NCBI GenBank assembly: GCA_947573135.1
Contig: CANPDU010000001.1
Span: 124,001-188,000, forward strand
Source: an uncultured Bacteroidales bacterium
GTDB lineage: Bacteria; Bacteroidota; Bacteroidia; Bacteroidales; Muribaculaceae
DNA: 64,000 nucleotides
Direction: 5' to 3'
The notes under the pieces were generated by a model. It was not told the origin of the DNA. It did no database searches and saw only the letters and a list, made by a program, of their open reading frames with translations. Every line of letters begins with the position of its first letter. Positions within the stretch are counted from its first letter, which is position 1. The translations under genes were made by a program, and so were the position numbers. Positions 19,458-33,829 of this stretch are shown here, one piece after another.

Positions 19458-21332
19458 TTACCAGGCATATCGGTTGAGGTCGGAGAGGCGGGGGACGCCC
19501 GACAGCGCCGGGATCTCGTAGATGACTTGCAGGGCGAGCGCACGGGTCATCAGCATGTCGTCGTGATAGCCCCGCCGGGCGCCGAAAGCGCCTCTCTCGT
19601 CCTGACGGTAGACAGCGAGCTCATAGCATGCTCCAGCCGAATTCTCGACATACTCGTGCTCGCGCACGGCGCGGACGAGACCGTTGATCAGAGCGGCCTT
19701 TGTCGCGCGGTTGGTGTGAAAACCTATGCGCCACGAGGTCACAGGCGAACCGTCGTCGGATCTTGAGCGCCGGTAGAGATTATGATAGCTGTCGGCAAGC
19801 CGCTGAAGGACATAACCGTTCGATCCGCCGCCGTTGCCCGACTCCGACTCGAGGGAGTTGCTCTCGATGACGAGGAGAGCCTCGTTGTAGCGGACCGCCA
19901 CGACACGGGCTATGTCGACCAAAATGTCGTGATCGACGTGTCCGCGCCACTGTGCGACGACCTCGTGACGGTCAGAGAAGGCGTCGCAGCGCCTCACCAC
20001 TGCAATGACCGACCAGTCGGCCGAGGCGGTGCGTCCGCCGACATCGACGGCCACAACATATTCGGCTCCTGGGCGCGGCTCCTCCCAGATCTCCAGCTCG
20101 CCGCCGGGACGGTCATATAAAGCGTCACCTACAACGGCGCAACGTCGCTCCGGCTCGCGGCAGTCCTTGAGCAGGCGGTCGATATCAGCCTGGTCGAACA
20201 CTCCGGCGTTTGTGGCGCCGAAGGCCTCAGTGTCGGTTGAAGGATATTCGGCGTAGAGTTTCTGAATGTCTTTGTCGGCACGGGCTTTCTCGCGGTACCA
20301 GTTGATCTGTTCGAGAGTGCATCCGAGTCGCCACAGATTGAGCTCGCGGTCAGACAGCGACGCGACAAAGTCTGCCGGGGGCACCGAAAGCGGCAGGGTG
20401 TTGGTCTCGACCTCAAACCAGGCGACAAACACCGGTCGCTTGTCGCTCTCGCCGTTTTTGGCGCGCTGCCACTCCTCGTAGAAGTAGTTGCCCATGCCGT
20501 TGGCGGTCGACTCCATGGCCACGAGCGAGTAAGGAATGAGAGCTACCGATCCGCAGACACTGCGTATCAGATCGTTGGGCGACTGCGAGGGGGTGTCGCG
20601 CCAGAAAGCGGTCTCCGACAGATGAGCCATCGCTATGTCGTAGCCGCGGATCGCATCCTGAGCCTCGCTCGACGTGACGGCCACGCGGCAGCCGCGTCCG
20701 GCAATCTCGCGGACGTTGGACGACCCTTCGAAAGGCTTGAAAAGCAGTTTTGTCTCACCGTCGTCGCCGCCGTCCCACATGTCGGCCGGATAGTCGCGCA
20801 CAAGCTCGGTGTACATGCGCCGGATATTGACCGCGCTGTCTTTGTTATGGCAGCATATGAGCGAACTCCAGTTGGGGAGCAGACACATCTGGATCCATGC
20901 CATATAGTTCTGTATCAGCGTCGAGCATCCCCACTGGCGCGCCTTGAGCACGATGATGCGTATCGGACGGCCGGCGAGGCGGTCGGCCTCGAGGACGGCG
21001 AGCACCTTGCGCTGCCCCCGGTTGAGCACCAAGGGTGTCAGGCGCCAGCCTGTCTTGGGCTTGATCTTCACGCAGGTGACACACCAGTATTCGAAATCGT
21101 AGCGGCAGCGCAGTATGCGCCACTGTTTCTCGCCCGAAGCGACGGCATAGAGCGGATCGTCGAGCATGGCGCGCGGCACACGCGCCCTTGACAGCCCCCT
21201 GACCGGCGTATCGACCTCAACGCGGTCGCCGAAGCACGATATGCCCGCTACGGGGTCATAATCGTCGGTCCGGGCGGCCTTGCGCCTTTCATTTTCGGCG
21301 ATAAAAGCCGGAATGTCTATTCTCTTTTCCAT
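19458..21332 (-). CDS. Phage terminase large subunit-like protein
   Basis: ATPase-like VLKARQWGCSTLIQNY (Walker A-like), IAMAHLSETAFW (Walker B-like), nuclease-like VAVDVGGRTASADWSVIAVV, LLVIESNSLE, HDDMLMTRALA. Confidence 0.82.
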   Translation of the reverse strand: MEKRIDIPAFIAENERRKAARTDDYDPVAGISCFGDRVEVDTPVRGLSRARVPRAMLDDPLYAVASGEKQWRILRCRYDFEYWCVTCVKIKPKTGWRLTPLVLNRGQRKVLAVLEADRLAGRPIRIIVLKARQWGCSTLIQNYMAWIQMCLLPNWSSLICCHNKDSAVNIRRMYTELVRDYPADMWDGGDDGETKLLFKPFEGSSNVREIAGRGCRVAVTSSEAQDAIRGYDIAMAHLSETAFWRDTPSQSPNDLIRSVCGSVALIPYSLVAMESTANGMGNYFYEEWQRAKNGESDKRPVFVAWFEVETNTLPLSVPPADFVASLSDRELNLWRLGCTLEQINWYREKARADKDIQKLYAEYPSTDTEAFGATNAGVFDQADIDRLLKDCREPERRCAVVGDALYDRPGGELEIWEEPRPGAEYVVAVDVGGRTASADWSVIAVVRRCDAFSDRHEVVAQWRGHVDHDILVDIARVVAVRYNEALLVIESNSLESESGNGGGSNGYVLQRLADSYHNLYRRSRSDDGSPVTSWRIGFHTNRATKAALINGLVRAVREHEYVENSAGACYELAVYRQDERGAFGARRGYHDDMLMTRALALQVIYEIPALSGVPRLSDLNRYAW

Positions 21333-21336
21333 GGCA

Positions 21337-23832
21337 TCAGTCTTTTATATAGCTTAAAGTTACAGCTGAGATCACCGTGTCGGGCGATACACGCCCCTGG
21401 AACGAGACCGCCGCGCGGCGCAGCGGCAGAGCCGGCAGGGCAACTTTCAGCGGCGAAGCCTGACGGCCGTCGAGGCTCAGTCTCAGCGACGGCGAGGGCT
21501 CTTCGTCGGCTGTGCTGACGCGCCTAACGGCGAGCGATCCGTAGGCGACCGACCGCGAGCGCATGTCGAAAGTCAGTCCGACCGGCCTGACAAAGTCGTC
21601 CGAAACGCTGATCGCGCAGTCCCAGCGGACATAGACCGAGCCGGCGGCGGGCGTCTCGGCTCCGAGACGGCAGAGACTGCCGCCGACGACAGCATAAGCG
21701 TCGAGCGACGGAGACCGGACCGCATCGTCGCGCGTGGCCGACTGCAGCGTCGAAAGATCGACCACAGCCGTGAGGCCGTCAGCGGCCGCAGAGCCCCAGA
21801 GCTCGTCTCTGACAGGATCATAGGCCAGCACATCGGCATCGAAATCAGACAGCAGAGTCACCGCGCGCGAAGCCCCGACTTCGACCAGGTTCCCCGACGC
21901 AACGGCAAGCAGGCGCCCGGCGGCATCGGCGGCCGCATGCCGCCCGACCACTCCGCGACTGTCGACAAGGCTGACACTCAGCGAGGCGCCTGAAAGGGTC
22001 ACCGCATATATGCCCCGGCTTGTGAGCGCCGAGAAACGCACACGCGAGAAATCCCAGCTCGACTGTGAGCGCGACGCCGGAAAGAGAGCGCTGACCTCGC
22101 CGTCGCCTACGGGAGCAAGAGACACTGCCGCCGTCGGAGCGTCGGCACGCGCAGCGGCGACAAAGCCCGGCAAAGGCTTTCTGACCCGGCGTTCGGCCGG
22201 AATGACGAAGGTCTGCGCCTCGCCTTCGGGCACAAAGGGTGCGAACCCGGGACTGACATAGACCGACATGTCGCCCGAGGGCAAAGGCGTGAGCGGCACA
22301 GTGGTACGGCGGACCTTACCTCCCGCACTGACAATCAGCGTCATCGCCACGGCGTCGGCCGACGGATAGCTCAGCACGGGGTTGAGTTCGGCAGGCGCGC
22401 CTTCAGTGCCCTGCGCCACGGCCACAAGCTGCTCGTCGCCCGAGGCAAAAGTTACGGCGACAGCCGATCTCCACGCTCCGGCCCCGGCACGGCTACCGGC
22501 AAAAAAGTCGGCCGACCAGCCCCTGAAACGCAAGGCTTCGAGCGAACCCCAGAGCACATTCCCGGCCGCCGACGCACAGCAGGCGGCAGCAAAAGCATGA
22601 GGCGGAGAGATACGCGACTGTGAGTCGGAGACGGTCTCGGGGCGCCGCGCCAGAGCTGCGGCCACCGCGCGGCACTCGTCGTCGACGCCCGAATAAGGCA
22701 GCGTCAGCCGAGGCTCGCAGTCGATCACAGAGCCCTCGGCAAACGGGCCTCTGATCACAGCGACAACCTGCTCTGCGTCGGCCTGCACGGCAAGCATCCG
22801 GCGCAGACGCGACTCTCCGGCAGCGGCATTACCCGAGCTCACCGACAACCCGGCGCCCGGCATCGTCAGACGCAGCATCGTTCTGTCGGCCGGATCGTTG
22901 ACGAGCACGGCCACAGCCTCGCCCGAGGGATCGAAGGGATGGAACTGCGGACAGGCGAGTATCTCTATACGGCTGACCGCCGCAGCCATAGCCTTGCTGA
23001 CGGGGCGGCTCGACACGACGGCCGGACGCCAGCCGCGCGCCGCTATCTCATAGCCGTCGAGCGTACGGCGGTCGTCGCTCGTAACAGCCACGGGAGCCGT
23101 GAGTCTGCCGCTGTCGCGAGGTCCGAGCAGCAGAGGCGGCGAAATGCAGAGCGTCGAACCGTCGTGACTCACAAGCCGGTAACGCACAATCGCCGGAGCG
23201 CAGCAGACGCCTGCGGCAGCCGCCTGTGAGACCACTTCAGTATAAGCCCGGCGCAGATCGCCGGTGACGGCGCGGCGGTCACTGTCGTTGAGCGGCTCCG
23301 AGGCCGAAGAATAGTCGCCCGACAGACGGCGCGGAGCGACCGTCGCCGTGCAGTCGGCAGTCTCATGTGCGGTCAGCGACAGGGCTGTCCATTCCGAGGG
23401 ATCGATAAGCAGCCATGCGCTTTCGCCGGCGTCGTAGGCCATGCGGCGCGGCCCGTCGGCGGTCATGACGGTCAGCATGTCGCCGAATGACACGGCGCAG
23501 CTGATCTCCGAGTCGGTGACGGCGATAAGGCTGACGCTCTCGGTCGACACGACGCCGGCGCCGCAGTCGGCTCCGACGAGGTCAATAGCTCCGAGGCGGC
23601 ATCCGTCGGCGACAATAAGCATCTCGACGCCAGGAGCCGGCGACATCTTGGTGAGCGGCCACCAGGCTCCTTCGGCGACGGGCTCGGGACGGCCTACGGG
23701 ACGCAGCACGGTCTCGCCGGTCGGCAGGATTTCGGTTCGCAGATTATGACATCTCATTGTGGCGCTTTTTGCTGACGGGGCCACTTTCGCCATGATGCCG
23801 CGCGCGGCGGCTCTAATTTTTGAAGGTCTCAT
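21337..23832 (-). CDS. Large hypothetical protein co-oriented with the terminase; possible phage tail/packaged-DNA-stabilisation-like protein
   Basis: N-terminus after the start: MRCHNLRTEILPTGETVLRPVGRPEPV; repetitive beta-rich sequence; 4-bp gap to terminase. The ORF-track start (23898) precedes the inferred -7 box, so ATG 23832 is preferred. The functional label is inference only. Confidence 0.4.
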   Translation of the reverse strand: MRPSKIRAAARGIMAKVAPSAKSATMRCHNLRTEILPTGETVLRPVGRPEPVAEGAWWPLTKMSPAPGVEMLIVADGCRLGAIDLVGADCGAGVVSTESVSLIAVTDSEISCAVSFGDMLTVMTADGPRRMAYDAGESAWLLIDPSEWTALSLTAHETADCTATVAPRRLSGDYSSASEPLNDSDRRAVTGDLRRAYTEVVSQAAAAGVCCAPAIVRYRLVSHDGSTLCISPPLLLGPRDSGRLTAPVAVTSDDRRTLDGYEIAARGWRPAVVSSRPVSKAMAAAVSRIEILACPQFHPFDPSGEAVAVLVNDPADRTMLRLTMPGAGLSVSSGNAAAGESRLRRMLAVQADAEQVVAVIRGPFAEGSVIDCEPRLTLPYSGVDDECRAVAAALARRPETVSDSQSRISPPHAFAAACCASAAGNVLWGSLEALRFRGWSADFFAGSRAGAGAWRSAVAVTFASGDEQLVAVAQGTEGAPAELNPVLSYPSADAVAMTLIVSAGGKVRRTTVPLTPLPSGDMSVYVSPGFAPFVPEGEAQTFVIPAERRVRKPLPGFVAAARADAPTAAVSLAPVGDGEVSALFPASRSQSSWDFSRVRFSALTSRGIYAVTLSGASLSVSLVDSRGVVGRHAAADAAGRLLAVASGNLVEVGASRAVTLLSDFDADVLAYDPVRDELWGSAAADGLTAVVDLSTLQSATRDDAVRSPSLDAYAVVGGSLCRLGAETPAAGSVYVRWDCAISVSDDFVRPVGLTFDMRSRSVAYGSLAVRRVSTADEEPSPSLRLSLDGRQASPLKVALPALPLRRAAVSFQGRVSPDTVISAVTLSYIKD

Positions 23833-23876
23833 AGGTTGATGAAGTGTATGATTTAGGTTAATAAATTTTTCTGCTG

Positions 23877-23884
23877 CAAAGTTA
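23877..23884 (-). promoter_or_regulatory. Bacteroidetes-type -7 box TAACTTTG for phage block 1
   Basis: CAAAGTTA on + = TAACTTTG on -, 44 bp upstream of ATG 23832. Confidence 0.65.
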
Positions 23885-23911
23885 CGGCGCAAAAACACCG
23901 TATTGACAGCA

Positions 23912-23933
23912 AAATCGGACGACTGTCCGATTT
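23912..23933 (-). promoter_or_regulatory. 22-bp operator-like perfect palindrome AAATCGGAC-N4-GTCCGATTT
   Basis: + strand AAATCGGAC GACT GTCCGATTT; 27 bp from the -7 box; nearly identical copy at 28396-28417. Confidence 0.8.
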
Positions 23934-24014
23934 AACACGCACTTTTTGAGTAAAAAAGTGATAACCCGGGCTTTAGAGCCTGAAAATTTTTCAGACAAGT
24001 CTGCTGAAATGACA

Positions 24015-24047
24015 GAGGGCGCTCCGTCAGTAATGACGGGCGCCCTC
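24015..24047 (-). terminator. Hairpin downstream of the 24078-25235 gene
   Basis: gagggcgctccgtca-gtaa-tgacgggcgccctc, long GC-rich stem with one bulge. Confidence 0.55.
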
Positions 24048-24077
24048 ACGGTTATAGCGGATTGTTGATCCTGATTA

Positions 24078-25235
24078 TCAGCGGATCACCTGTTTGGTGA
24101 CTTTGTCGCCGCGGCAAACGATGAAGATACCGTTTTCGGGGTTGTCAACGCGCACACCCTGGAGGTTGTAGTAGACAGCCTCAGCTTCGGCAGCCTCGAT
24201 ATCCTCGATGCCGCTCGACTGTGCGGGAGCGTAGCTTACAACGTAAAGCGACGGAGCATTGTTGTAGACTGTAACAACGATAGTAACATCATATGTGCCG
24301 GCTTCGACCGATGCCTGTTCATAGTTGTTGCGGAATGAGAGCTCAACATCGCCGACTTTGCCGGTGAAATTAGACTTGGTTGCAGGAGTAGCCTCAGCAA
24401 AGACAACGTCTTTTACAACGACAACGCTGTTGACGAGATCGGTTGTGATGTCGGCGGCTGCGACGGCCTTAGCAGTGAAAGTGCCGGCGGTTGTAGCGGG
24501 AAGAGCGTCAAATTCGATTTCGGGAGTTGCACCGTTATAGAGTTTGTAAGTGCCTTCCCAACCTGCGGGAATAACATCGCCTACAGAGAGTGTGTTAGAT
24601 CCGTAAAGCTGGATGAAATCGCCGGCTTCGTCACAAGCAAATACATTGCTGTTTCTAACAAAACCGACAGTCAGAGCATAGTCAACAGCGATTTTAGTTC
24701 CTGTTGCAAGAGCCTTTGTGGCAGCTACAGACGCAACTTTAGTCGCTTCGGGTTCGGGTTCCGGTGCGACTTCAGTATCACTGACAACAATGCCTGTCAC
24801 ACGGAACTGGTTGGCCGATGCAGTCATAGTCACAGTCTTGGCGGCAGTAGTGCTTGAGATAGTGAGAGTCTTGGCTGTAGCATCATACTTCTGAGTCCAG
24901 CCTTCGCTGACTGTCTGCTCACCGCCGTAGTTGCCACCCTGGGAAGAGAGTATGACATTTTTGAAATCGAAATCAGCGCTGCTGATCACAATTTGAGCTT
25001 TCTTGTAAACACGAATCTGATCACCGGGTTTAATCAAAGCTGTAGACGATTCATGTTTGATTGTTTTGATAGTGAAAGTTTTTTCGCCTGCTTTGACTGT
25101 TGTTTCAAAACCATTAGCATCGCCTGTCCATTCAAGAGAAGCATAATTGTCTGCTCCGAAGATAGTGTACTGCTCAGCGTTGGCACCCATTACACCAACA
25201 GCCGCAACTGCAATTGAAAGTAAAAGTTTTTTCAT
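24078..25235 (-). CDS. Secreted protein with C-terminal 'YNLQGVRV' sorting-type tail
   Basis: Signal peptide MKKLLLSIAVAAVGVMGANA; C-terminus VYYNLQGVRVDNPENGIFIVCRGDKVTKQVIR. Confidence 0.65.
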   Translation of the reverse strand: MKKLLLSIAVAAVGVMGANAEQYTIFGADNYASLEWTGDANGFETTVKAGEKTFTIKTIKHESSTALIKPGDQIRVYKKAQIVISSADFDFKNVILSSQGGNYGGEQTVSEGWTQKYDATAKTLTISSTTAAKTVTMTASANQFRVTGIVVSDTEVAPEPEPEATKVASVAATKALATGTKIAVDYALTVGFVRNSNVFACDEAGDFIQLYGSNTLSVGDVIPAGWEGTYKLYNGATPEIEFDALPATTAGTFTAKAVAAADITTDLVNSVVVVKDVVFAEATPATKSNFTGKVGDVELSFRNNYEQASVEAGTYDVTIVVTVYNNAPSLYVVSYAPAQSSGIEDIEAAEAEAVYYNLQGVRVDNPENGIFIVCRGDKVTKQVIR

Positions 25236-25271
25236 AAAAAAATAGATGTTAGTTAACAGTTAATTATTTGG

Positions 25272-26330
25272 TTATTTTGATTTTGGTTTCATGTAGCGGA
25301 TGAGGAGGATTTCGGTCGGGAAGTGGTCGGAGTAGCCGTTGAGATATGATCCCGACGCGAATGTGCGCCGCGGATAGCCCTGACGGTTGCCTTCGGTGTC
25401 CTTGAGAAAATCTTTGTTGAGCACATCGGCGCGGTAGAAGTGCCAGCGGTCTTCGGGAGCGTTGGCAATGTTGCCCGATATGATTATCTGGTCGAAGAGG
25501 TTCCACTGGCTCTTGTAGGCGAGAGTGCCGATGCCGGAGTCGAGTTTGCGCCAGAATGGGTTATAGAACTCATGGTCACCTACGCCGTCGGCGTCACGCT
25601 TGGCGCCGAGCACTTTGGCACACGATTTGTCCATGGGGTCGTCATTGAGGTCACCCATGATGATCACGCCGATGTTGGGATCGACGCGCCAAAGCGAGTC
25701 GGCGATCTGCTTCGACAGGGCCGCGGCAGCCTCACGGTTGGGCGACGATTGTTCCTGGCCGCCGAGACGCGAAGGCCAGTGGTTGACAATCACGGCGATG
25801 CGTTCGCCGCCGATGGTTCCGACGACACACATCTGGTCGCGTGTGCGGAAGGGTATGGTCGTGAGGCGGTGGTTGGTGACGCGCTCAAATTTGAACATTC
25901 GCGGATTATAGAGCAACCCGACATCGACGCCGCGCGCATCGGGCGAGTCGTGATGGACGATCTGAAGGTTCCACGGTTTCAGTTCGGGCTGTGCGACAAG
26001 ATCCTCAAGCACCGTGCGGTTTTCGATCTCGCTCACGCCGACAATGGCCGGACCCATAGGTGTGCCGGGCGTGGTGAACTGCGAGATGGCATATGCGAGA
26101 TTGTGGAGCTTGGCGTTGTATTTCCGCGAATCCCACTGTTTCTGTCCGCCGGGAGTGTATTCGAGGTCACGGTTTTCGGGATTGTTGGGTATGGTGTCAA
26201 ACAGGTTTTCAAGGTTATAGAAAGCGATACCGACCATCTGGCGGCGGCCTTCAGTATTGTTTTTCCGGGCTGTCGCAACAGAGAGAACGGCGATCAGCAC
26301 AATGGCAAAGGTAAAAAATCGTTTCATCAA
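25272..26330 (-). CDS. Endonuclease/exonuclease/phosphatase family protein
   Basis: GIAFYNLENLFDTI...VGVSEIENRTVLEDL...IVHHDSPDARGVDVGLLY...IVNHWPSRLGGQ...IIMGDLNDDP...GYSDHFP. Confidence 0.9.
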   Translation of the reverse strand: MMKRFFTFAIVLIAVLSVATARKNNTEGRRQMVGIAFYNLENLFDTIPNNPENRDLEYTPGGQKQWDSRKYNAKLHNLAYAISQFTTPGTPMGPAIVGVSEIENRTVLEDLVAQPELKPWNLQIVHHDSPDARGVDVGLLYNPRMFKFERVTNHRLTTIPFRTRDQMCVVGTIGGERIAVIVNHWPSRLGGQEQSSPNREAAAALSKQIADSLWRVDPNIGVIIMGDLNDDPMDKSCAKVLGAKRDADGVGDHEFYNPFWRKLDSGIGTLAYKSQWNLFDQIIISGNIANAPEDRWHFYRADVLNKDFLKDTEGNRQGYPRRTFASGSYLNGYSDHFPTEILLIRYMKPKSK

Positions 26331-26413
26331 TCTACGGCTTGGTTTTGAGACCGTAAAGATAAAAATTTTTTATTTCAACAGCAAAAAAAATTTACAGGCC
26401 TAAATCAGACAGG

Positions 26414-26455
26414 TCTGACTTGTCCGACCCGTCCGCCTTGCCCGACTTGCCGGCC
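26414..26455. repeat. 9-bp-period tandem repeat, TCCGACTTG family
   Basis: TCTGACTTG TCCGACCCG TCCGCCTTG CCCGACTTG, ending at the stop codon of the DUF1573 gene. Confidence 0.8.
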
Positions 26456-27523
26456 TCAAAAGATTTCGCCGACGGCGCGGATGGTGCGGACCGGGTCGGC
26501 CGGGTCGTTGGTGATGACTGATATGCGGGCGTTGAGTATATCGCCGCTGATCGCCGACGGATCGGCTGTGACAGTGATCACGGCCGATTTGCCGGGCTTG
26601 ACGGTCGTGCGGCCGATCGTGACACCGACGCCTCGGTCGACAGTATAGACGCGGCGCACTTCGAGCGGCGAGCGCCCGTCGTTAGTGAGGGTCACTTCGC
26701 GGCTGACACGGCCGCCCGAGCGGTCGATGCGCCCGAAATCCACAGCTCCGGCCGACAGCGAGGCTGCTGGAGCATCGGCGCGGTCGTCGTCGCTGAGCGA
26801 ACTGAAATCTTCCTGTATTATAGCGGTGAAAGGCACGGTAAACTCACGGCTGCCATCGGATACACGCAGCGAGTCTTCGAGCAGTCCCCACTCCTCGGTC
26901 TCGCCTGTACGCAGAAAGCAGATCATGGTCAGCTGCTCACCGGGCCCGACGGTCTTAGGCTCGAAACTGACGTCGACATAGCGCGGCTTGGCCATGACTC
27001 GCGGAGTGATGCTGTCGGCGCTGCGATTGTAGGCCTCGGAGTAGACGGTCTTGAGATGAGGACGGTCGACGCGGCCGAACATCACGGCTCCGTCGCGGAA
27101 CTTCAGCGCGCCCTTGTCGACGGGATAGCGGCCGGCGACGCTCGTCTGCGCTCCGATCACCACGCCTCGGATCGTCAGCCGGGTCTTAGGCGCGTTGGAG
27201 GCCGTGGTCTCGACGCTGACCGTCTTGCGGAAGCGGCCGGGACGTCCCTCGGGATTGTAGGCGACGGTGATCGAGGCGGTGTCGCCCGGAGCGACGGCCT
27301 CAGACGGATAAAGCGGACGCGTGCAGCCGCACGACGCACGGGCAGCGATGACGGTCACCGGCGTGTCGCCGGTGTTGACAAAACGGAAGTCACAGCTGAC
27401 GGCGCCATGGTCTTCGTCGAAGGCTCCGAAATTGTGGTCGACGCCGAGCCATGTTATTTCAGATTCTGCCGAGGCGGCAAACGAGACACATGCAGCGCAT
27501 GCCAGACTCAATATCTTTTTCAT
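26456..27523 (-). CDS. DUF1573 domain-containing secreted protein
   Basis: ASAESEITWLGVDHNFGAFDEDHGAVSCDFRFVNTGDTPVTVIAARASCGCTRPLYPSEAVAPGDTASITVAYNPEGRPGRFRKTV. Confidence 0.85.
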   Translation of the reverse strand: MKKILSLACAACVSFAASAESEITWLGVDHNFGAFDEDHGAVSCDFRFVNTGDTPVTVIAARASCGCTRPLYPSEAVAPGDTASITVAYNPEGRPGRFRKTVSVETTASNAPKTRLTIRGVVIGAQTSVAGRYPVDKGALKFRDGAVMFGRVDRPHLKTVYSEAYNRSADSITPRVMAKPRYVDVSFEPKTVGPGEQLTMICFLRTGETEEWGLLEDSLRVSDGSREFTVPFTAIIQEDFSSLSDDDRADAPAASLSAGAVDFGRIDRSGGRVSREVTLTNDGRSPLEVRRVYTVDRGVGVTIGRTTVKPGKSAVITVTADPSAISGDILNARISVITNDPADPVRTIRAVGEIF

Positions 27524-27601
27524 CTTCTACTTATATATATATGAGCTTGTATATATGAGCTTGTTTAATATGTGCAAAGATACGCATTTTTCACATTCCG
27601 G

Positions 27602-28303
27602 TCACGCACGGCCGATTTCTTCGCGTTCTCGCCGGCGCCGCTGCAGATATTTGGTGACGATGTCGCCGAGATAGACCGTGAAAAGCGGAAACATTATCAC
27701 ACCCATGCCCGAAAGTACGGCGGCGAGTATCTTGCCGGCCACTGTGACCGGATTGACGGGAGCGCCGATGGTCGTGGCTTCGAGACTGCACCACCACAGC
27801 GACGACCAGTAGTCGGTGATGTCGGGATTGACGGGCTGCTCCTGCTCGAAGAAGATCAGCGAGGCGAAGTAGACCATCAGAAACACTATGCTGACATATG
27901 ACCAGAAGATGCCGACAATCTTCGACGTCGACACGTAGCTGATAACCAGCGCCATGGCATAGGCCGCCCGGACCAGGGGAATGAAGCGCACGAAATAGAT
28001 CTGCTGCTCGTCGAGCTGCACGTGACAGTAGGTGATGATGTTGAGATAGGGTATCGAGACGAGCAGAAAGAATATATTGTGCCAGAAAAAACGGCGTCTG
28101 TTGTCGGAGAGCGCCATCTGGGCGAAAAATTCGATGATGAAGATAATACACACCCATAGCTGGAAACGCATGTAGACCGGGTTGGTCAGAAACGGTTTCT
28201 GAAGAAAGGTATCTATCGAAATAAACAGTATCAGAGCCACCGACAGACCGAGAACGATCCACCGCAACATGTTGCTGATATCACGCTTGACATTTTTTTT
28301 CAT
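27602..28303 (-). CDS. Ion-transport / potassium-channel-like membrane protein with non-canonical pore motif
   Basis: Multiple TM segments and pore region SSLWWCSLEATTIGAPVNPVTVAGKILAAVLSGMGVIMFPLFTVYLGDIV. Confidence 0.75.
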   Translation of the reverse strand: MKKNVKRDISNMLRWIVLGLSVALILFISIDTFLQKPFLTNPVYMRFQLWVCIIFIIEFFAQMALSDNRRRFFWHNIFFLLVSIPYLNIITYCHVQLDEQQIYFVRFIPLVRAAYAMALVISYVSTSKIVGIFWSYVSIVFLMVYFASLIFFEQEQPVNPDITDYWSSLWWCSLEATTIGAPVNPVTVAGKILAAVLSGMGVIMFPLFTVYLGDIVTKYLQRRRREREEIGRA

Positions 28304-28395
28304 TTTCGACGCACTTTTTTATCGTTGTTGAAACGCTGCATAACTAACACACCGTCACACGATAATGTTCGCTCCGGCGGCTTTTTCGATGTGTT

Positions 28396-28417
28396 AAATC
28401 GGACAAACGTCCTATTT
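28396..28417 (+). promoter_or_regulatory. 22-bp operator-like palindrome AAATCGGAC-N4-GTCCTATTT (one mismatch)
   Basis: AAATCGGAC AAAC GTCCTATTT; flanks GTGTT and TGCT shared with the 23912-23933 site on the opposite strand; 27 bp to the -7 box. Confidence 0.8.
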
Positions 28418-28444
28418 TGCTAAAAATCATGAAGAATTGCATTA

Positions 28445-28452
28445 TAACTTTG
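28445..28452 (+). promoter_or_regulatory. Bacteroidetes-type -7 box TAACTTTG for phage block 2
   Basis: attaTAACTTTGcagatg; identical octamer and identical palindrome spacing to block 1. Confidence 0.65.
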
Positions 28453-28519
28453 CAGATGTAAATCAAACCTAATTAAAATCACTTTTGACAACCCAATTAT
28501 TAACCTCAACATTTTTATT

Positions 28520-28804
28520 ATGGAAACTTCTGAAACCATCAGCAACACCGAAGAACTTCAGCCGGAAACCACGGCCGAAAACAATGCCGGCGCCGGTCAG
28601 GACACTGCCGGACTGGAACGCCTTCTCGAAGAGGCCGAGCAGCGCGGATATCTCCGCGGTCGCAACGAGCGCATCGAGCAGGAGGTGATGAACCCTCTGG
28701 CCGCCACAGCTCCGGCCGATGACAGCGGCGACGGCGACGACGACGAAACCTGCCCGAGCTTCCTCGCCCATCTCCGCCCCGGCTTCTGGGACTCAGTCAA
28801 ATAA
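28520..28804 (+). CDS. Small acidic protein, possible phage scaffold-like
   Basis: 94 aa, acidic, LERLLEEAEQRGYLRGRNERIEQEV helix; immediately upstream of a capsid-like gene. Confidence 0.45.
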   Translation: METSETISNTEELQPETTAENNAGAGQDTAGLERLLEEAEQRGYLRGRNERIEQEVMNPLAATAPADDSGDGDDDETCPSFLAHLRPGFWDSVK

Positions 28805-28882
28805 AAATGCGTCGGAGACGCAAAACAATTCAGAAACAACTCACAAATCAATCATTAACTCACTAAAAAATTTATTTACATT

Positions 28883-30163
28883 ATGTCTACACAAATTCTC
28901 AACGGCGAAAATTCAGGTCGCCACATCGTCGACGGTCCGCTTACCGTCGCAGTCAGCAACGAAGCCGCTCCCGGCCTTATCCGCAACGCAATCGACCAGC
29001 GCATAGTCAAAGTGCGCCCGATGTCGACGCCCATCGATCAGCTCTCACGCTGCGCCGGCGCAAGACCGGCCCGGTCGATGACCGTAGAGTACTACTCGGT
29101 CGATCCCAAGAAAACACAGTCGAAGGTCGAGGCCGACGTGGCCGCAGGCATCGGCAAACGCCGCTCCGACGGCATCTATACCCACAACATCATGACCGAA
29201 GACGACAACCTCTTCGAACCCTCCGAGACTCTCATGCTGCCGACGGTCATGGTCCACAAGACAGCCCGTTCGGCAGGCGAGCCGCTTGTAGTCTACGTCA
29301 CGGCGCGCAATGCCGACACCGGCCTCGAAGTCATTGCCGTCAACGCCGACATCGCCGAGACCGGCAAGCCTGCCATACCGGCCATCGCCAAAGGTTCGCC
29401 TGTCGTAAGGATGGGACGCGCTGCCAGCGAACTCGACGTGCAGACGCCTCAGTTCCAGGCGCTCCCTACCAAGACAGACAATAATTGTCAGATATTCAAA
29501 ATGCAGGTCGAGGAAAGCACGTTCCACAAGATAGCCAACAAGGAAGTGGGCTGGACCTTCTCCGACCAGGAAGAGGCGGCAATCATCGACATGCGCCTCG
29601 GCATGGAGAAAAACTTTCTCTTCGGAGCAAAGTCGAAGATCATCGACCCCAACAAGCACGAAGAGATATATCTCACCGGCGGCATCTGGCAGCAGGCCGG
29701 ACGCGAGATCGACGTGACGCTCGACGACTTCACCGAGAAAACTCTGATCGATATCGCCCAGGCGGCCTTCACCGGCAACTGCGGCTCAAAACGCAAGATA
29801 CTGCTCTGCGGCTCCGAACTTATGAGTATCATCTCGAAGATCGACTGCCAGCGCATACGCCGCGCCTCTGACTCGACCGTCATCTGGGGGCTTGAGTTCA
29901 GCCAGATCGTCACCAACTTCGGCAACATCTTCGTCGTCCACTCGGAGATCTTCGACCAGTGCGGCCACGCCTGCGACGCCATGGTCATCGATCCCGACTA
30001 TCTGACAAAGTATGTCCACATACCGTTCCACACCGAGAAACTCGACCTGCGCCGATCCGGCACACGCAACACCTCGGCCGTGGTGATCACCGAGGCTTCG
30101 TGTGTCGTGCTCCGCTATCCCGACGCCCACCTGCGTGTCAACGGTGTTAAAGTCGCCGACTGA
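28883..30163 (+). CDS. Putative phage major capsid protein (SU10/DUF5309-like)
   Basis: 426 aa; MSTPIDQLSRCAGARPARSMTVEYYSVDPKKTQSKVE...EDDNLFEPSETLMLP...TEKTLIDIAQAAFTGNCGSKRKILLCGSELMSII...LEFSQIVTNFGNIFVVHSEIFDQCG; position between scaffold-like and portal-like genes. Confidence 0.65.
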   Translation: MSTQILNGENSGRHIVDGPLTVAVSNEAAPGLIRNAIDQRIVKVRPMSTPIDQLSRCAGARPARSMTVEYYSVDPKKTQSKVEADVAAGIGKRRSDGIYTHNIMTEDDNLFEPSETLMLPTVMVHKTARSAGEPLVVYVTARNADTGLEVIAVNADIAETGKPAIPAIAKGSPVVRMGRAASELDVQTPQFQALPTKTDNNCQIFKMQVEESTFHKIANKEVGWTFSDQEEAAIIDMRLGMEKNFLFGAKSKIIDPNKHEEIYLTGGIWQQAGREIDVTLDDFTEKTLIDIAQAAFTGNCGSKRKILLCGSELMSIISKIDCQRIRRASDSTVIWGLEFSQIVTNFGNIFVVHSEIFDQCGHACDAMVIDPDYLTKYVHIPFHTEKLDLRRSGTRNTSAVVITEASCVVLRYPDAHLRVNGVKVAD

Positions 30164-30165
30164 CC

Positions 30166-30744
30166 ATGATCACCGAATACTCTCATCTTCAGATGCTCCA
30201 GACCTGGCGCCGGTGCGCCGGGCTGGAGTCTTCGGCGAGCGACTGCTCGGTCGGGCGCTTTGACGGCACCGATGTCGACCCCCGGCTGTCGGCGATGATG
30301 CGGCAGTGGTATCTCGGACTTCTCGACAGCGGCGATCCCTGCCTCACCGGACCGCCGGCCGACGCCACTGATCTCGTATCTCCGGTCATGACCGACGACA
30401 GCGACAGGCAGGCCGTGATTGCGGCCGATCCTTCGGTCAGGCGCCTCACTGCCGTCAGGCTCTCGGGCTGGAAACGCCCGGCCGTGATCGCCGATGCCGA
30501 CAGCATCAGAGCCACACTGGCGCTGCAGCACAACCGGTTCTCGCGTGCAGGCACGACGTCGCCGCTGGCGTGGCGCAACGCCGACGGAACGGTATGCGTC
30601 TGCCCGGCCGACAAAGATTCGACCGTGACCGCCGCCACGGCGTTTGTCGACACCGGCAGCGAAATCTACCGCCTCGACGAGCGGGCACTCGCGACCATTC
30701 CTATTTATATCAGCAACCATCAGACAACAAGCATACTCCTATGA
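30166..30744 (+). CDS. Hypothetical protein in phage block 2 (possible head-tail connector)
   Basis: 192 aa, lies between capsid-like and portal-like genes, overlaps the portal start (ATGA). Confidence 0.5.
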   Translation: MITEYSHLQMLQTWRRCAGLESSASDCSVGRFDGTDVDPRLSAMMRQWYLGLLDSGDPCLTGPPADATDLVSPVMTDDSDRQAVIAADPSVRRLTAVRLSGWKRPAVIADADSIRATLALQHNRFSRAGTTSPLAWRNADGTVCVCPADKDSTVTAATAFVDTGSEIYRLDERALATIPIYISNHQTTSILL

Positions 30745-32168
30745 TGACCCCCGACACCAACCTCCAAGTGCTCACCGCCGCACGCGACGCGTGGCTCGCA
30801 GCCTCTTCGTTCCGTCAGCGGCGCGACCGCTACAAACGCTACACCTACGGCGATCAGTGGAGCGATCCGGCCGTCGACCACCGCGGGCACCCGGTAGCCG
30901 AAGCCGAACTGCTCAGCCGCGACGGCCGGAAGCCGCTGACCAACAATCTGATCCGCCAGATCGTTAAAATCGTGATCGGTCGCTACCGCACGGCCAGCCG
31001 CGACGACGGACGCTACTCTGACGACAGCCGCGCGTTTGTGAGCGACAACCAGCTGCTCGAACTCGACTGCCGCATGCTCGAGGAATTCCTGATCTCGGGC
31101 TGCGCCGTGCAGCGCGTCAGCCGCGAGACCCGCCGCGGCCGCAACAGGCTGTGGATCGACAATGTCGACCCGCGCGCATTTTTTGTCAACGCCTACCGCG
31201 ATCCGCGCGGCAACGATATCGAACTCATCGGCATGCTCCACGATCTGCCGTTTCCCGAAATCGTGAGCCGTTTCGGCCGTGGCAGCCGTCAGCGCGCCGC
31301 AGCTTTGGCCCGGTCCTACGCCGTGACGTCGGCCGACCTTGCCTTTGCCTCGCCGCGGATGCTCGGCGAGCCTGACGGCGATACTTCCGACTTCTTCAAT
31401 GCTCCGGCCGGACGATGCCGTGCGATAGAGGTCTGGACTCTCGACTGCCGCAACACCATAGTCTGTCACGACCGCCGCGACGCCCGGGCATTCAAGGTCG
31501 GCAACTCGGCGGCCGCCAGAGCCTCGATCAGAGACACCAACGACCGCCGCAGACTCAAGGGCGAGCTGGCCGTCGACTCGCGGCAGTCGCTCGACTTCGT
31601 ATGGCACTGCCGCTGGTTTGCTCCCGACGGCTCGCTGCTCGCGTCCTACGACTCGCCCTTCGCCCACGGCTCACATCCCTTTGCCGTAAAACTCTATCCT
31701 CTGACCGACGGCGAGATCCACTCCTTTGTAGAGGATGTCATCGACCAGCAGCGGTCGATCAACCGCATGATCGTGATGATCGACCATATCATCGGATCGT
31801 CGGCCAAAGGCGTGCTGCTCTTTCCCGTCGAACAGAAACTGCCCGACTACTCCTGGGAAGACATCTCCGACGCCTGGGCCAGATCCAACTCCATCATCCC
31901 TGTCACAGGTCGCAGCGCCAACATGCCTCATCAGGTGGTCAGTTCGGGCGCCGACTGCGGCGCATATCAGCTGCTCGCCCTCCAGATGAAGCTCTTCGAC
32001 AACATTTCGGGCATCGGCGACGTCGTGGCCGGACGCAATGTCTCGCCTTCGACCGGCAACGCCGTCTACGAAAACCAGTTGCGCAACTCCATCATCGGCC
32101 TGACCGACCTGCTCGACTCATTTGCTGCCTTCAAACGAGAACGTGATAAAAAGGCAGAAAAATTATAA
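30741..32168 (+). CDS. Phage portal-like protein
   Basis: RYKRYTYGDQWSDPAVDHRGHPVAEAELLSRDGRKPLTNNLIRQIVKIVIGRYRT...FVEDVIDQQRSINRMIVMIDHIIGSSAKGVLLFP...NISGIGDVVAGRN; in-frame ATG at 30741. Confidence 0.75.
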   Translation: MMTPDTNLQVLTAARDAWLAASSFRQRRDRYKRYTYGDQWSDPAVDHRGHPVAEAELLSRDGRKPLTNNLIRQIVKIVIGRYRTASRDDGRYSDDSRAFVSDNQLLELDCRMLEEFLISGCAVQRVSRETRRGRNRLWIDNVDPRAFFVNAYRDPRGNDIELIGMLHDLPFPEIVSRFGRGSRQRAAALARSYAVTSADLAFASPRMLGEPDGDTSDFFNAPAGRCRAIEVWTLDCRNTIVCHDRRDARAFKVGNSAAARASIRDTNDRRRLKGELAVDSRQSLDFVWHCRWFAPDGSLLASYDSPFAHGSHPFAVKLYPLTDGEIHSFVEDVIDQQRSINRMIVMIDHIIGSSAKGVLLFPVEQKLPDYSWEDISDAWARSNSIIPVTGRSANMPHQVVSSGADCGAYQLLALQMKLFDNISGIGDVVAGRNVSPSTGNAVYENQLRNSIIGLTDLLDSFAAFKRERDKKAEKL

Positions 32169-32253: not shown

Positions 32254-32682
32254 ATGAACCGTAAAACTCTAATCCAGCTACGCGACGAAGACTTCACAGA
32301 ATGTCTGCGTTCGACAATCCTGCGGCACCAGCGCGAACGCCGCGACACAGCCGCGGCCGCCATCATCTCGGAGGCTCTCGCCTCGCGTCCGCGCCGCTAC
32401 TATCTCTCCTACTCGACCGTCTCGACCCAACTGTCGCGTCTGCGCGGCAAAGGCCACCTCAAGACGGCCGCCAACCGCAAAAGCACCCTTGCGCGCAGCC
32501 AGTGGGCCGACATCAGCTCGGCCGTCGACCGCTATCTCTGCCGCAACAAACGCGCCACGATCGGCGAAGCCATCACCCACGTCGTCAACTTCGAGCGGCC
32601 CAAGCGCTTCTACATCTCCGACAAGCGCGCCCGCGAACTCTTCCGCTGCGTCAGCCGCCGCACCTACAGCCTCGTCGGCTGA
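32254..32682 (+). CDS. Hypothetical basic protein downstream of portal
   Basis: 142 aa open frame, very Arg-rich; own upstream TAAATTTG -7-like box near 32219. Confidence 0.5.
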   Translation: MNRKTLIQLRDEDFTECLRSTILRHQRERRDTAAAAIISEALASRPRRYYLSYSTVSTQLSRLRGKGHLKTAANRKSTLARSQWADISSAVDRYLCRNKRATIGEAITHVVNFERPKRFYISDKRARELFRCVSRRTYSLVG

Positions 32683-32752: not shown

Positions 32753-33190
32753 ATGAAAATCTCAATTTCAATCACCTCTGTCATCGACGACATCTGTGCC
32801 GACTCTGCCATCAGAGCCATCTTTAACCGCCGCGACACCGTTCCGCCGCTGCTCACCGGCGACCACTGCGAGGCCCTGGGCCGGGTAGTGGTCACGGCCG
32901 CGGCCATGACTGCCGGACGGCTCGCCGCGCGCCTGACGAAATTCGCCGTCAGTGAAGCCGACGGCACCATCGGCTTTGAGGTCGCCGACACCACGCGCGT
33001 CCGTCCCGAAGCGCTGCGCCACTACCTTGAGACCGCGGTGAAATTCGCCGCGATGTATCTCGTCGCAGTCCCGGCCGGCGACACCGCCGCGGCCGACAAC
33101 TACCTCCGCTGCCACAACCTCACCCTCGACAGCGCCGCCACAGCCCTCGACTCCCGCCCCGCCCTCACCCTCCGCCCCCACTACTGCTGA
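32753..33190 (+). CDS. Hypothetical protein
   Basis: MKISISITSVIDDICADSAIRAIFNRRDTVPPLLTGDHCEALGRVV...; ATG at 32753. Confidence 0.5.
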   Translation: MKISISITSVIDDICADSAIRAIFNRRDTVPPLLTGDHCEALGRVVVTAAAMTAGRLAARLTKFAVSEADGTIGFEVADTTRVRPEALRHYLETAVKFAAMYLVAVPAGDTAAADNYLRCHNLTLDSAATALDSRPALTLRPHYC

Positions 33191-33253: not shown

Positions 33254-33280
33254 CTTAACAATACTAATACCGATTATGAG

Positions 33281-33829
33281 ATGAGCGAACTGATACCGGC
33301 CGGCCACGGCAATTACAAGCAGTTGTTGAGCTATCAGAAGACTGATGTTATCTACCGGATTACATATTTCTTTTGTCACAGCTTTCTGCAACGCGGCGAC
33401 AGGACTATCGACCAGATGGTGCAGGCTGCCCGCAGCGGGAAGCAAAACATAATCGAGGGTTGCGCCGCTTCTTCGACATCAGCCAAAACCGAGATCAAGC
33501 TGGTCAACGTCGCAAAGGCAAGTCTGAAAGAGCTGCTGGAAGATTTTGAGGATTACCTGAAGACCCGCAACGCCCGGCAATGGGAAAAAGGAAGCGCTGA
33601 GTATGAGACCATGCGGCGGCTTGGCAGAGACCACAATGACGCCGAATTCTTCATGAAAATCGTCGAAACCCGGCCGCCGGAGACCATCGCCAATATGGCG
33701 ATAATACTGATCAATCAGGCTGATTATCTGCTTTACCGCCAGCTTGAACGGCTATCGGCTGACTTTGTTGAAAACGGCGGTTTCTCGGAGCGCATGACGG
33801 CCCTCCGCCGCAACAAGAGAAAATATTAA
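33281..33829 (+). CDS. Four helix bundle suffix domain-containing protein (S23/IVP-like)
   Basis: LLSYQKTDVIYRITYFFCHSFLQRGDRTIDQMVQAARSGKQNIIEGCAASSTSAKTEIKLVNVAKASLKELLEDFEDYL. Confidence 0.85.
   Translation: MSELIPAGHGNYKQLLSYQKTDVIYRITYFFCHSFLQRGDRTIDQMVQAARSGKQNIIEGCAASSTSAKTEIKLVNVAKASLKELLEDFEDYLKTRNARQWEKGSAEYETMRRLGRDHNDAEFFMKIVETRPPETIANMAIILINQADYLLYRQLERLSADFVENGGFSERMTALRRNKRKY

Follow-up and report, generated by a model that had tools for sequence, protein, structure and literature searches.

Two phage-derived operons in a Muribaculaceae chromosome

A stretch of 64,000 nucleotides from an uncultured Bacteroidales bacterium of the Muribaculaceae (assembly GCA_947573135.1, contig CANPDU010000001.1, positions 124,001 to 188,000; hereafter the window) carries two separate sets of phage-like head and packaging genes, which we consider to be probable parts of a domesticated short-tailed phage retained as a gene transfer agent (GTA)-like system. 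The genome from which it derives, here called G000, comprises 2.85 Mb in 56 contigs. On the minus strand, the large terminase subunit TerL (624 aa, 19458..21332) follows a putative tail nozzle protein (831 aa, 21337..23832); on the plus strand, a small scaffold-like protein (94 aa, 28520..28804), the major capsid protein (426 aa, 28883..30163), a 192-aa protein named p192 (30166..30744) and the portal protein (475 aa, 30741..32168) are followed by p142 (32254..32682) and p145 (32753..33190). Each set is preceded by an inverted-repeat operator and a promoter, at 23877..23933 on the minus strand and at 28396..28452 on the plus strand.

Capsid, portal and TerL are recognizable by sequence. The capsid belongs to the SU10 family (Pfam SU10_MCP, PF17236, 1e-52) and the portal is P22-like (P22_portal, PF16510, 6e-16; phrog_156, 9e-36). 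TerL was missed by a genome search with Pfam Terminase_6N and recovered with PHROG profiles (phrog_2, E 8e-22); its motor and nuclease residues (KARQ-x-G-x-S, D430-x-G-G, E490 and H590-D591-D592) are invariant in 14 relatives. The 831-aa protein could not be assigned to a sequence family, and its relatives in profile searches include phage proteins. Its AlphaFold2 model (pLDDT 87.8, pTM 0.85) retrieves from the PDB, as top Foldseek matches, the tail proteins of SU10, Pa223, cyanophage A4, T7 gp12, P22 gp10 and Sf6 gp8, and aligns with a predicted podovirus protein in BFVD at a TM-score of 0.65 over most of its length. Because the PDB matches have low TM-scores (0.2-0.33, relative to the query) and propeller proteins without relation to tails appear lower in the list, the model shows the podovirus tail nozzle fold class (P22 gp10/T7 gp12 type) and not to close kinship with any of these proteins. 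The gene lies directly upstream of TerL in most TerL loci.

The roles of the smaller proteins are predicted from gene order. The scaffold-like protein matches no Pfam or PHROG profile; its homologs lie directly upstream of the capsid gene in relatives, and its own profile finds matches in 76 of 80 IMG/VR loci. The position of p192 between capsid and portal is kept in relatives, and the protein is present in 66 of the 80 loci; its AlphaFold2 model (pLDDT 62) has no fold match in the PDB, and a role as head-to-tail adaptor is therefore proposed by position only. A homolog of p142 occurs in 75 of the 80 loci and adjoins TerL in the phage layouts listed; together with a weak winged-helix match (PF03965, 6e-4, below the Pfam cut-off), this makes p142 a candidate small terminase subunit (TerS) or winged-helix DNA-binding protein. 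Homologs of p145 come after p142 in relatives, and more distant phage relatives sit beside the nozzle gene in the Bacteroides phages BS-TP4 and BF1-TP2.

An earlier, sequence-only reading of the window had described a split, minimal head gene set with intact frames, and had proposed a domesticated capsid or GTA-like system. All of its phage-like and other named frames are indeed open, and of the proteins that it put forward for comparison with phage head folds, one is a nozzle by fold, capsid and portal are secured by sequence, as is TerL, and p192 lacks a match. The frame of its 853-aa gene is real, but the upstream GTG is not the start: an ATG at 23832, within the transcript of the gene's own promoter, gives 831 aa. 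Likewise, the 532-aa portal was correctly identified but begins at an ATG at 30741, overlapping the end of the p192 gene. The split is genuine; the set is not minimal, since p142 and p145 downstream of the portal, both overlooked along with the operator and promoter common to the two halves, as well as the nozzle identity and dispersed lysis genes add to it. Among the apparently cellular genes between the halves, the EEP nuclease and the channel-like protein were confirmed by Pfam, and the secreted protein gave no significant match. ARAGORN found no tRNA in the window. Outside the system, a protein encoded at 33278-33829 bears a weak resemblance to the 23S rRNA intervening-sequence family (2e-5, below the cut-off) and has a 37% relative upstream of the window.

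Conservation, selection and inheritance

The genes are a near-constant feature of the family. Across 198 Muribaculaceae genomes from 30 genera, the capsid is found in 185 and TerL in 181, each in 29 genera, at about 50% identity, mostly in single copy and with few stops; Muribaculum, Paramuribaculum and Heminiphilus are among the named relatives in the TerL scan. Counted from the two lists, 174 genomes have both genes and six have neither, and several of the absences fall in incomplete genomes. In about ten genomes the capsid match is only weak (E 1e-8 to 1e-16), and these may hold a diverged form of the gene. Beyond the family, members of six other families of the order have the capsid, at 46-50% identity. 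A database entry titled 'Pseudoflavonifractor sp.' (L302) contains a Muribaculaceae-type TerL and nozzle gene, and its label looks wrong.

The scaffold-capsid-p192-portal block and the nozzle-TerL pair are found again in most neighbourhoods, and the distance between capsid and TerL ranges from a few to hundreds of kb, reaching nearly 1 Mb in one single-contig genome. No intact integrated prophage was recognized around capsid or TerL in 40 clustered neighbourhoods, and no integrase or replication gene recurs among the conserved neighbours at these 40 loci, for which no dedicated integrase or att search was made.

In the close pairs that were tested, purifying selection acts on both genes. The closest informative pairs give dN/dS values of 0.024, 0.026, 0.077 and 0.081 for the capsid and of 0.067-0.109 for TerL, compared with 0.03-0.05 for SerS; the pair G012-G056 is an exception (0.23 and 0.18), and more distant pairs, being near saturation, were excluded. 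These values are far below 1, not close to the neutrality that a decaying prophage had been expected to display. TerL is inherited with the host genera, and the system is vertically inherited: on the TerL tree the genus labels, taken together, can be explained by the fewest changes possible, the phages lie in one separate clade (support 100), and evolutionary distances are correlated between capsid and TerL (rho 0.58), capsid and SerS (0.47) and TerL and SerS (0.64; Mantel p <= 0.001).

A shared operator and its regulon

The capsid and nozzle-TerL operons have an inverted-repeat operator and promoter in common, with identical spacing. Both begin with AATCGGAC-N4-GTCC(G/T)ATTTTGCT set at constant spacing from a Bacteroides-type TAnnTTTG element; upstream of the nozzle gene the operator reads AATCGGAC-N4-GTCCGATT and is accompanied by a -33/-7 promoter. 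A composite operator/promoter pattern that allows three mismatches matches the genome at 12 sites and the reversed control at none, two of the 12 being the source of the motif. The pattern had been broadened a single time, following the appearance of the amidase at three mismatches, so that the amidase site is independent of the first pattern and not of the final one.

Besides the two operons, the sites precede an Amidase_2 endolysin (PF01510; phrog_822, 7e-59), a holin relative, a DUF6291 gene, a 148-aa protein and six RecA-like paralogs. The gene after the endolysin encodes a spanin-like lipoprotein, whose lipobox and hydrophobic C-terminal segment give it the topology of a unimolecular spanin. 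The holin relative matches annotated phage holins at 2e-4 directly and at 3e-7 via a homolog, which itself scores 0.0037 against PF05105, below the cut-off. The sequence-only reading had noted the lack of lysis genes, which is true of the locus; genes of this kind sit elsewhere in the genome behind the same promoter. The 148-aa protein (G000:C4:107794, L128:4874-5320) has no match in Pfam, PHROGs, NCBIfam or phages.

The RecA-like genes form a family of some 15 RecA/KaiC-like ATPase paralogs (L037, L038, L039, L122, L129, L130 and L391-L399): six have the operator, eight divergent copies lack it and one is cut by a contig end. In place of GxxxxGK[ST], their Walker A motif has a G/A-x-x-x-x-D-K-[TS]-like sequence (GPRNVDKT, for example). 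Since the rest of the family nearly lacks these paralogs, they were rejected as a conserved component of the system.

Operators in other lineages

None of the relatives fetched showed the G000 operator, and a single family-wide operator was therefore rejected; instead, the regions upstream of the capsid and of nozzle/TerL were compared with each other, both inside one genome and across genomes. For 11 of the 26 genomes the match inside the genome scored above every one of 50 controls paired across genomes, where about 0.5 would be expected. Eight of these are strong cases (G000, G071, G053, G007, G057, G140, G013 and G128), each with a different sequence; the common segments in G003, G094 and G102 are too weak to be included among them. 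Six of the strong cases could also be checked against promoter-like windows from the genome concerned: the match was unequalled in G000, G071, G007, G057 and G013, and two windows scored as high in G053. The operators of G128 (L443, L444) and G000 are both inverted repeats, but the half-sites differ (TTTGGTC..GACCAAA in the former, TCGGAC..GTCCGA in the latter), which suggests a dimeric regulator of changing specificity.

In G057, which belongs to another genus, the motif occurs at 20 sites, against none in the reversed control. Among the genes that follow are the capsid operon, nozzle-TerL, an M15 endolysin (phrog_894, 4e-26), a spanin-like gene whose product has a lipobox and a C-terminal hydrophobic segment, and an RlmH-like gene; no holin was found in the set. 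Most of the remainder are basic-tailed, DUF6291-type paralogs (L451-L470), dispersed on the chromosome and each behind the phage-gene promoter. They account for about 13 of the 20 sites, one of them scoring just below the DUF6291 cut-off, and the sites L453 and L462 precede broken frames. Since the site sets of G000 and G057 both include such genes, head, packaging and lysis genes stand under common promoters in two genera, with differing motifs and endolysin types.

Phage relatives and known systems

The Bacteroides phages BF1-TP2 and BS-TP4 and IMG/VR relatives encode homologs of TerL, capsid, p192, portal, p142, p145 and the nozzle. In the two phages the TerL homolog is annotated as a 'tail spike protein' (7e-110 and 3e-109; L062:15975-18002 and L063:15856-17952). 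Unlike the Muribaculaceae system, these are free phages, with genomes above 60 kb in their GenBank records and a separate TerL clade; BF1-TP2 and BS-TP4 also have very large extra ORFs. In three short IMG/VR contigs (L189-L191) the genes are contiguous and resemble the chromosomal cluster, which suggests that contiguity is the ancestral order; the TerL of L190 groups among Muribaculaceae in the TerL tree, and this contig, filed as viral, may be a chromosomal fragment. Another contig of 10.1 kb (L192) contains the capsid-to-p142 block twice and inverted, probably an assembly artefact. With SU10-, P22- and T7-like podophages at large the system shares the SU10 capsid, the P22 portal and the nozzle fold; it differs in being split and chromosomally fixed, and no replication, integration or fibre genes were recognized at the Muribaculaceae loci.

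RcGTA is encoded by phage-derived head and packaging genes that occupy more than one chromosomal locus and pass down with the host, and its lysis genes lie at loci of their own. The Muribaculaceae system resembles RcGTA and the Rhodogtaviriformidae of the Alphaproteobacteria in all of these respects. It differs in its SU10-type capsid, P22-type portal and podovirus-type nozzle in place of a long tail, in its Bacteroidales host, and in a lineage-varying operator that also precedes lineage-specific paralog families. The closest functional parallel, by analogy of layout, would be FpGTA of Faecalibacterium prausnitzii, which is podovirus-like and encoded in two separated operons, one with the head genes and the other with holin and endolysin, and for which particles have been obtained experimentally and a putative receptor-binding protein described (PMC12946183). 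Both occur in gut bacteria, are podovirus-like and have separated operons, although the hosts belong to different phyla and the Muribaculaceae system is known from its genes.

A probable GTA-like system and its alternatives

We favour the reading that a short-tailed, SU10/P22-like phage has been domesticated and is kept as a lysis-released GTA-like system, with a probability of roughly 0.7. One regulator would switch on the scattered units in some cells; heads would assemble and be filled with chromosomal DNA by TerL; the holin-endolysin-spanin set would lyse the cell; and the released short-tailed particles would deliver DNA to kin. Of the six features in a published definition of GTAs (PMC9662315), three are found here. 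The particle proteins derive from a tailed phage, with capsid, portal, TerL and nozzle matching caudoviricete proteins by sequence or fold; the genes are endogenized at multiple loci (two head/packaging loci plus dispersed lysis loci, with no intact prophage recognized); and they are inherited vertically and have diversified with the host (29 of 30 genera, the TerL tree and the Mantel tests with SerS). As for a particle too small to hold its whole gene set, the genes are widely dispersed, nearly 1 Mb apart in one genome. We keep to 'GTA-like' because random packaging of host DNA and its delivery are predictions.

Several observations weigh against this reading. Particle, packaged DNA and transfer are all predicted from genes, and neither a regulator nor a receptor-binding protein was identified. 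The assignments of p142 as TerS and p192 as adaptor follow from position, and that of the spanin-like protein from topology read from sequence. The holin relative is present in 12 of 99 genomes, and members of the amidase family are also frequent at other places in these genomes. The operator sequence varies by lineage, and more than half of the tested genome pairs yielded no common motif. Finally, some lineages are losing the system, as in G032, where the portal is split into two frames and TerL has no match.

A phage-derived particle might instead be kept for a use other than transfer, such as lytic release of DNA, a killing particle or some other form of capsid co-option. No recipient-side genes were found, as no receptor-binding protein was, and common promoters for lysis and head genes would be needed for release alone as well; we nevertheless regard this as unlikely, given that the TerL motor and nuclease residues, the portal and the nozzle are all kept, which is best explained by DNA that is packaged and passed out via a tail. 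It is more improbable that the motif is a general host operator, for instance of a stress regulon, which the phage genes have joined, in which case co-regulation would be no proof of one dedicated system. Half of the 12 G000 sites on RecA-like paralogs, and in G057 the many DUF6291-type paralogs and the RlmH-like gene, would fit such an operator; in both genera, despite differing motifs, the sites nonetheless single out genes for head, packaging and lysis, and no known stress gene was recognized among the targets.

Least probable of all, and very improbable, is a prophage remnant or a satellite dependent on a helper phage. Component homologs do exist in BF1-TP2/BS-TP4 or IMG/VR contigs and decay is visible in G032, but separate loci with a common operator, and conserved neighbours among which no integrase or replication genes were recognized (in the absence of a dedicated integrase search), speak for something else. 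The locus is very probably not a decaying prophage: capsid and TerL are each present in more than 90% of the sampled family genomes, usually as single-copy open frames, dN/dS is mostly low in the close pairs, and TerL follows the host genus. The preference of the sequence-only reading for a GTA-like system over such decay is supported by the fold, neighbourhood and dN/dS results.

A bolder version of the GTA-like reading is tentative and rather doubtful: a family-wide Bacteroidales GTA in which each lineage rewrites the regulator-operator code yet keeps the operons co-regulated, with the operator recruiting a different amplified, dispersed family each time, RecA-like proteins with an altered Walker A motif in one lineage and DUF6291-type proteins in another. 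The scattered paralog units may make the chromosome ready for packaging or mark its starting points.

Implications

A gut study found GTA-like packaging mainly in Gram-positive anaerobes and credited Bacteroidales only with lateral transduction (PMC12946183). No GTA of Bacteroidales or Muribaculaceae was found in the open-access literature searched, a coverage outside which most subscription papers and preprints fall. The family-wide retention of the particle genes, and their common promoters with lysis genes in two genomes, suggest a previously unreported gene transfer agent. The system is open to testing in strains already in culture, those with these genes including Heminiphilus faecis AM35, Muribaculaceae Isolate-002 and Isolate-110, and Barnesiella sp. 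WM24. A fast-changing operator with a constant set of targets makes it a case for how a host rewires a domesticated virus. If active, it would mean that in nearly every sampled genome this family has a built-in, lysis-released DNA-transfer particle, apparently of independent origin.

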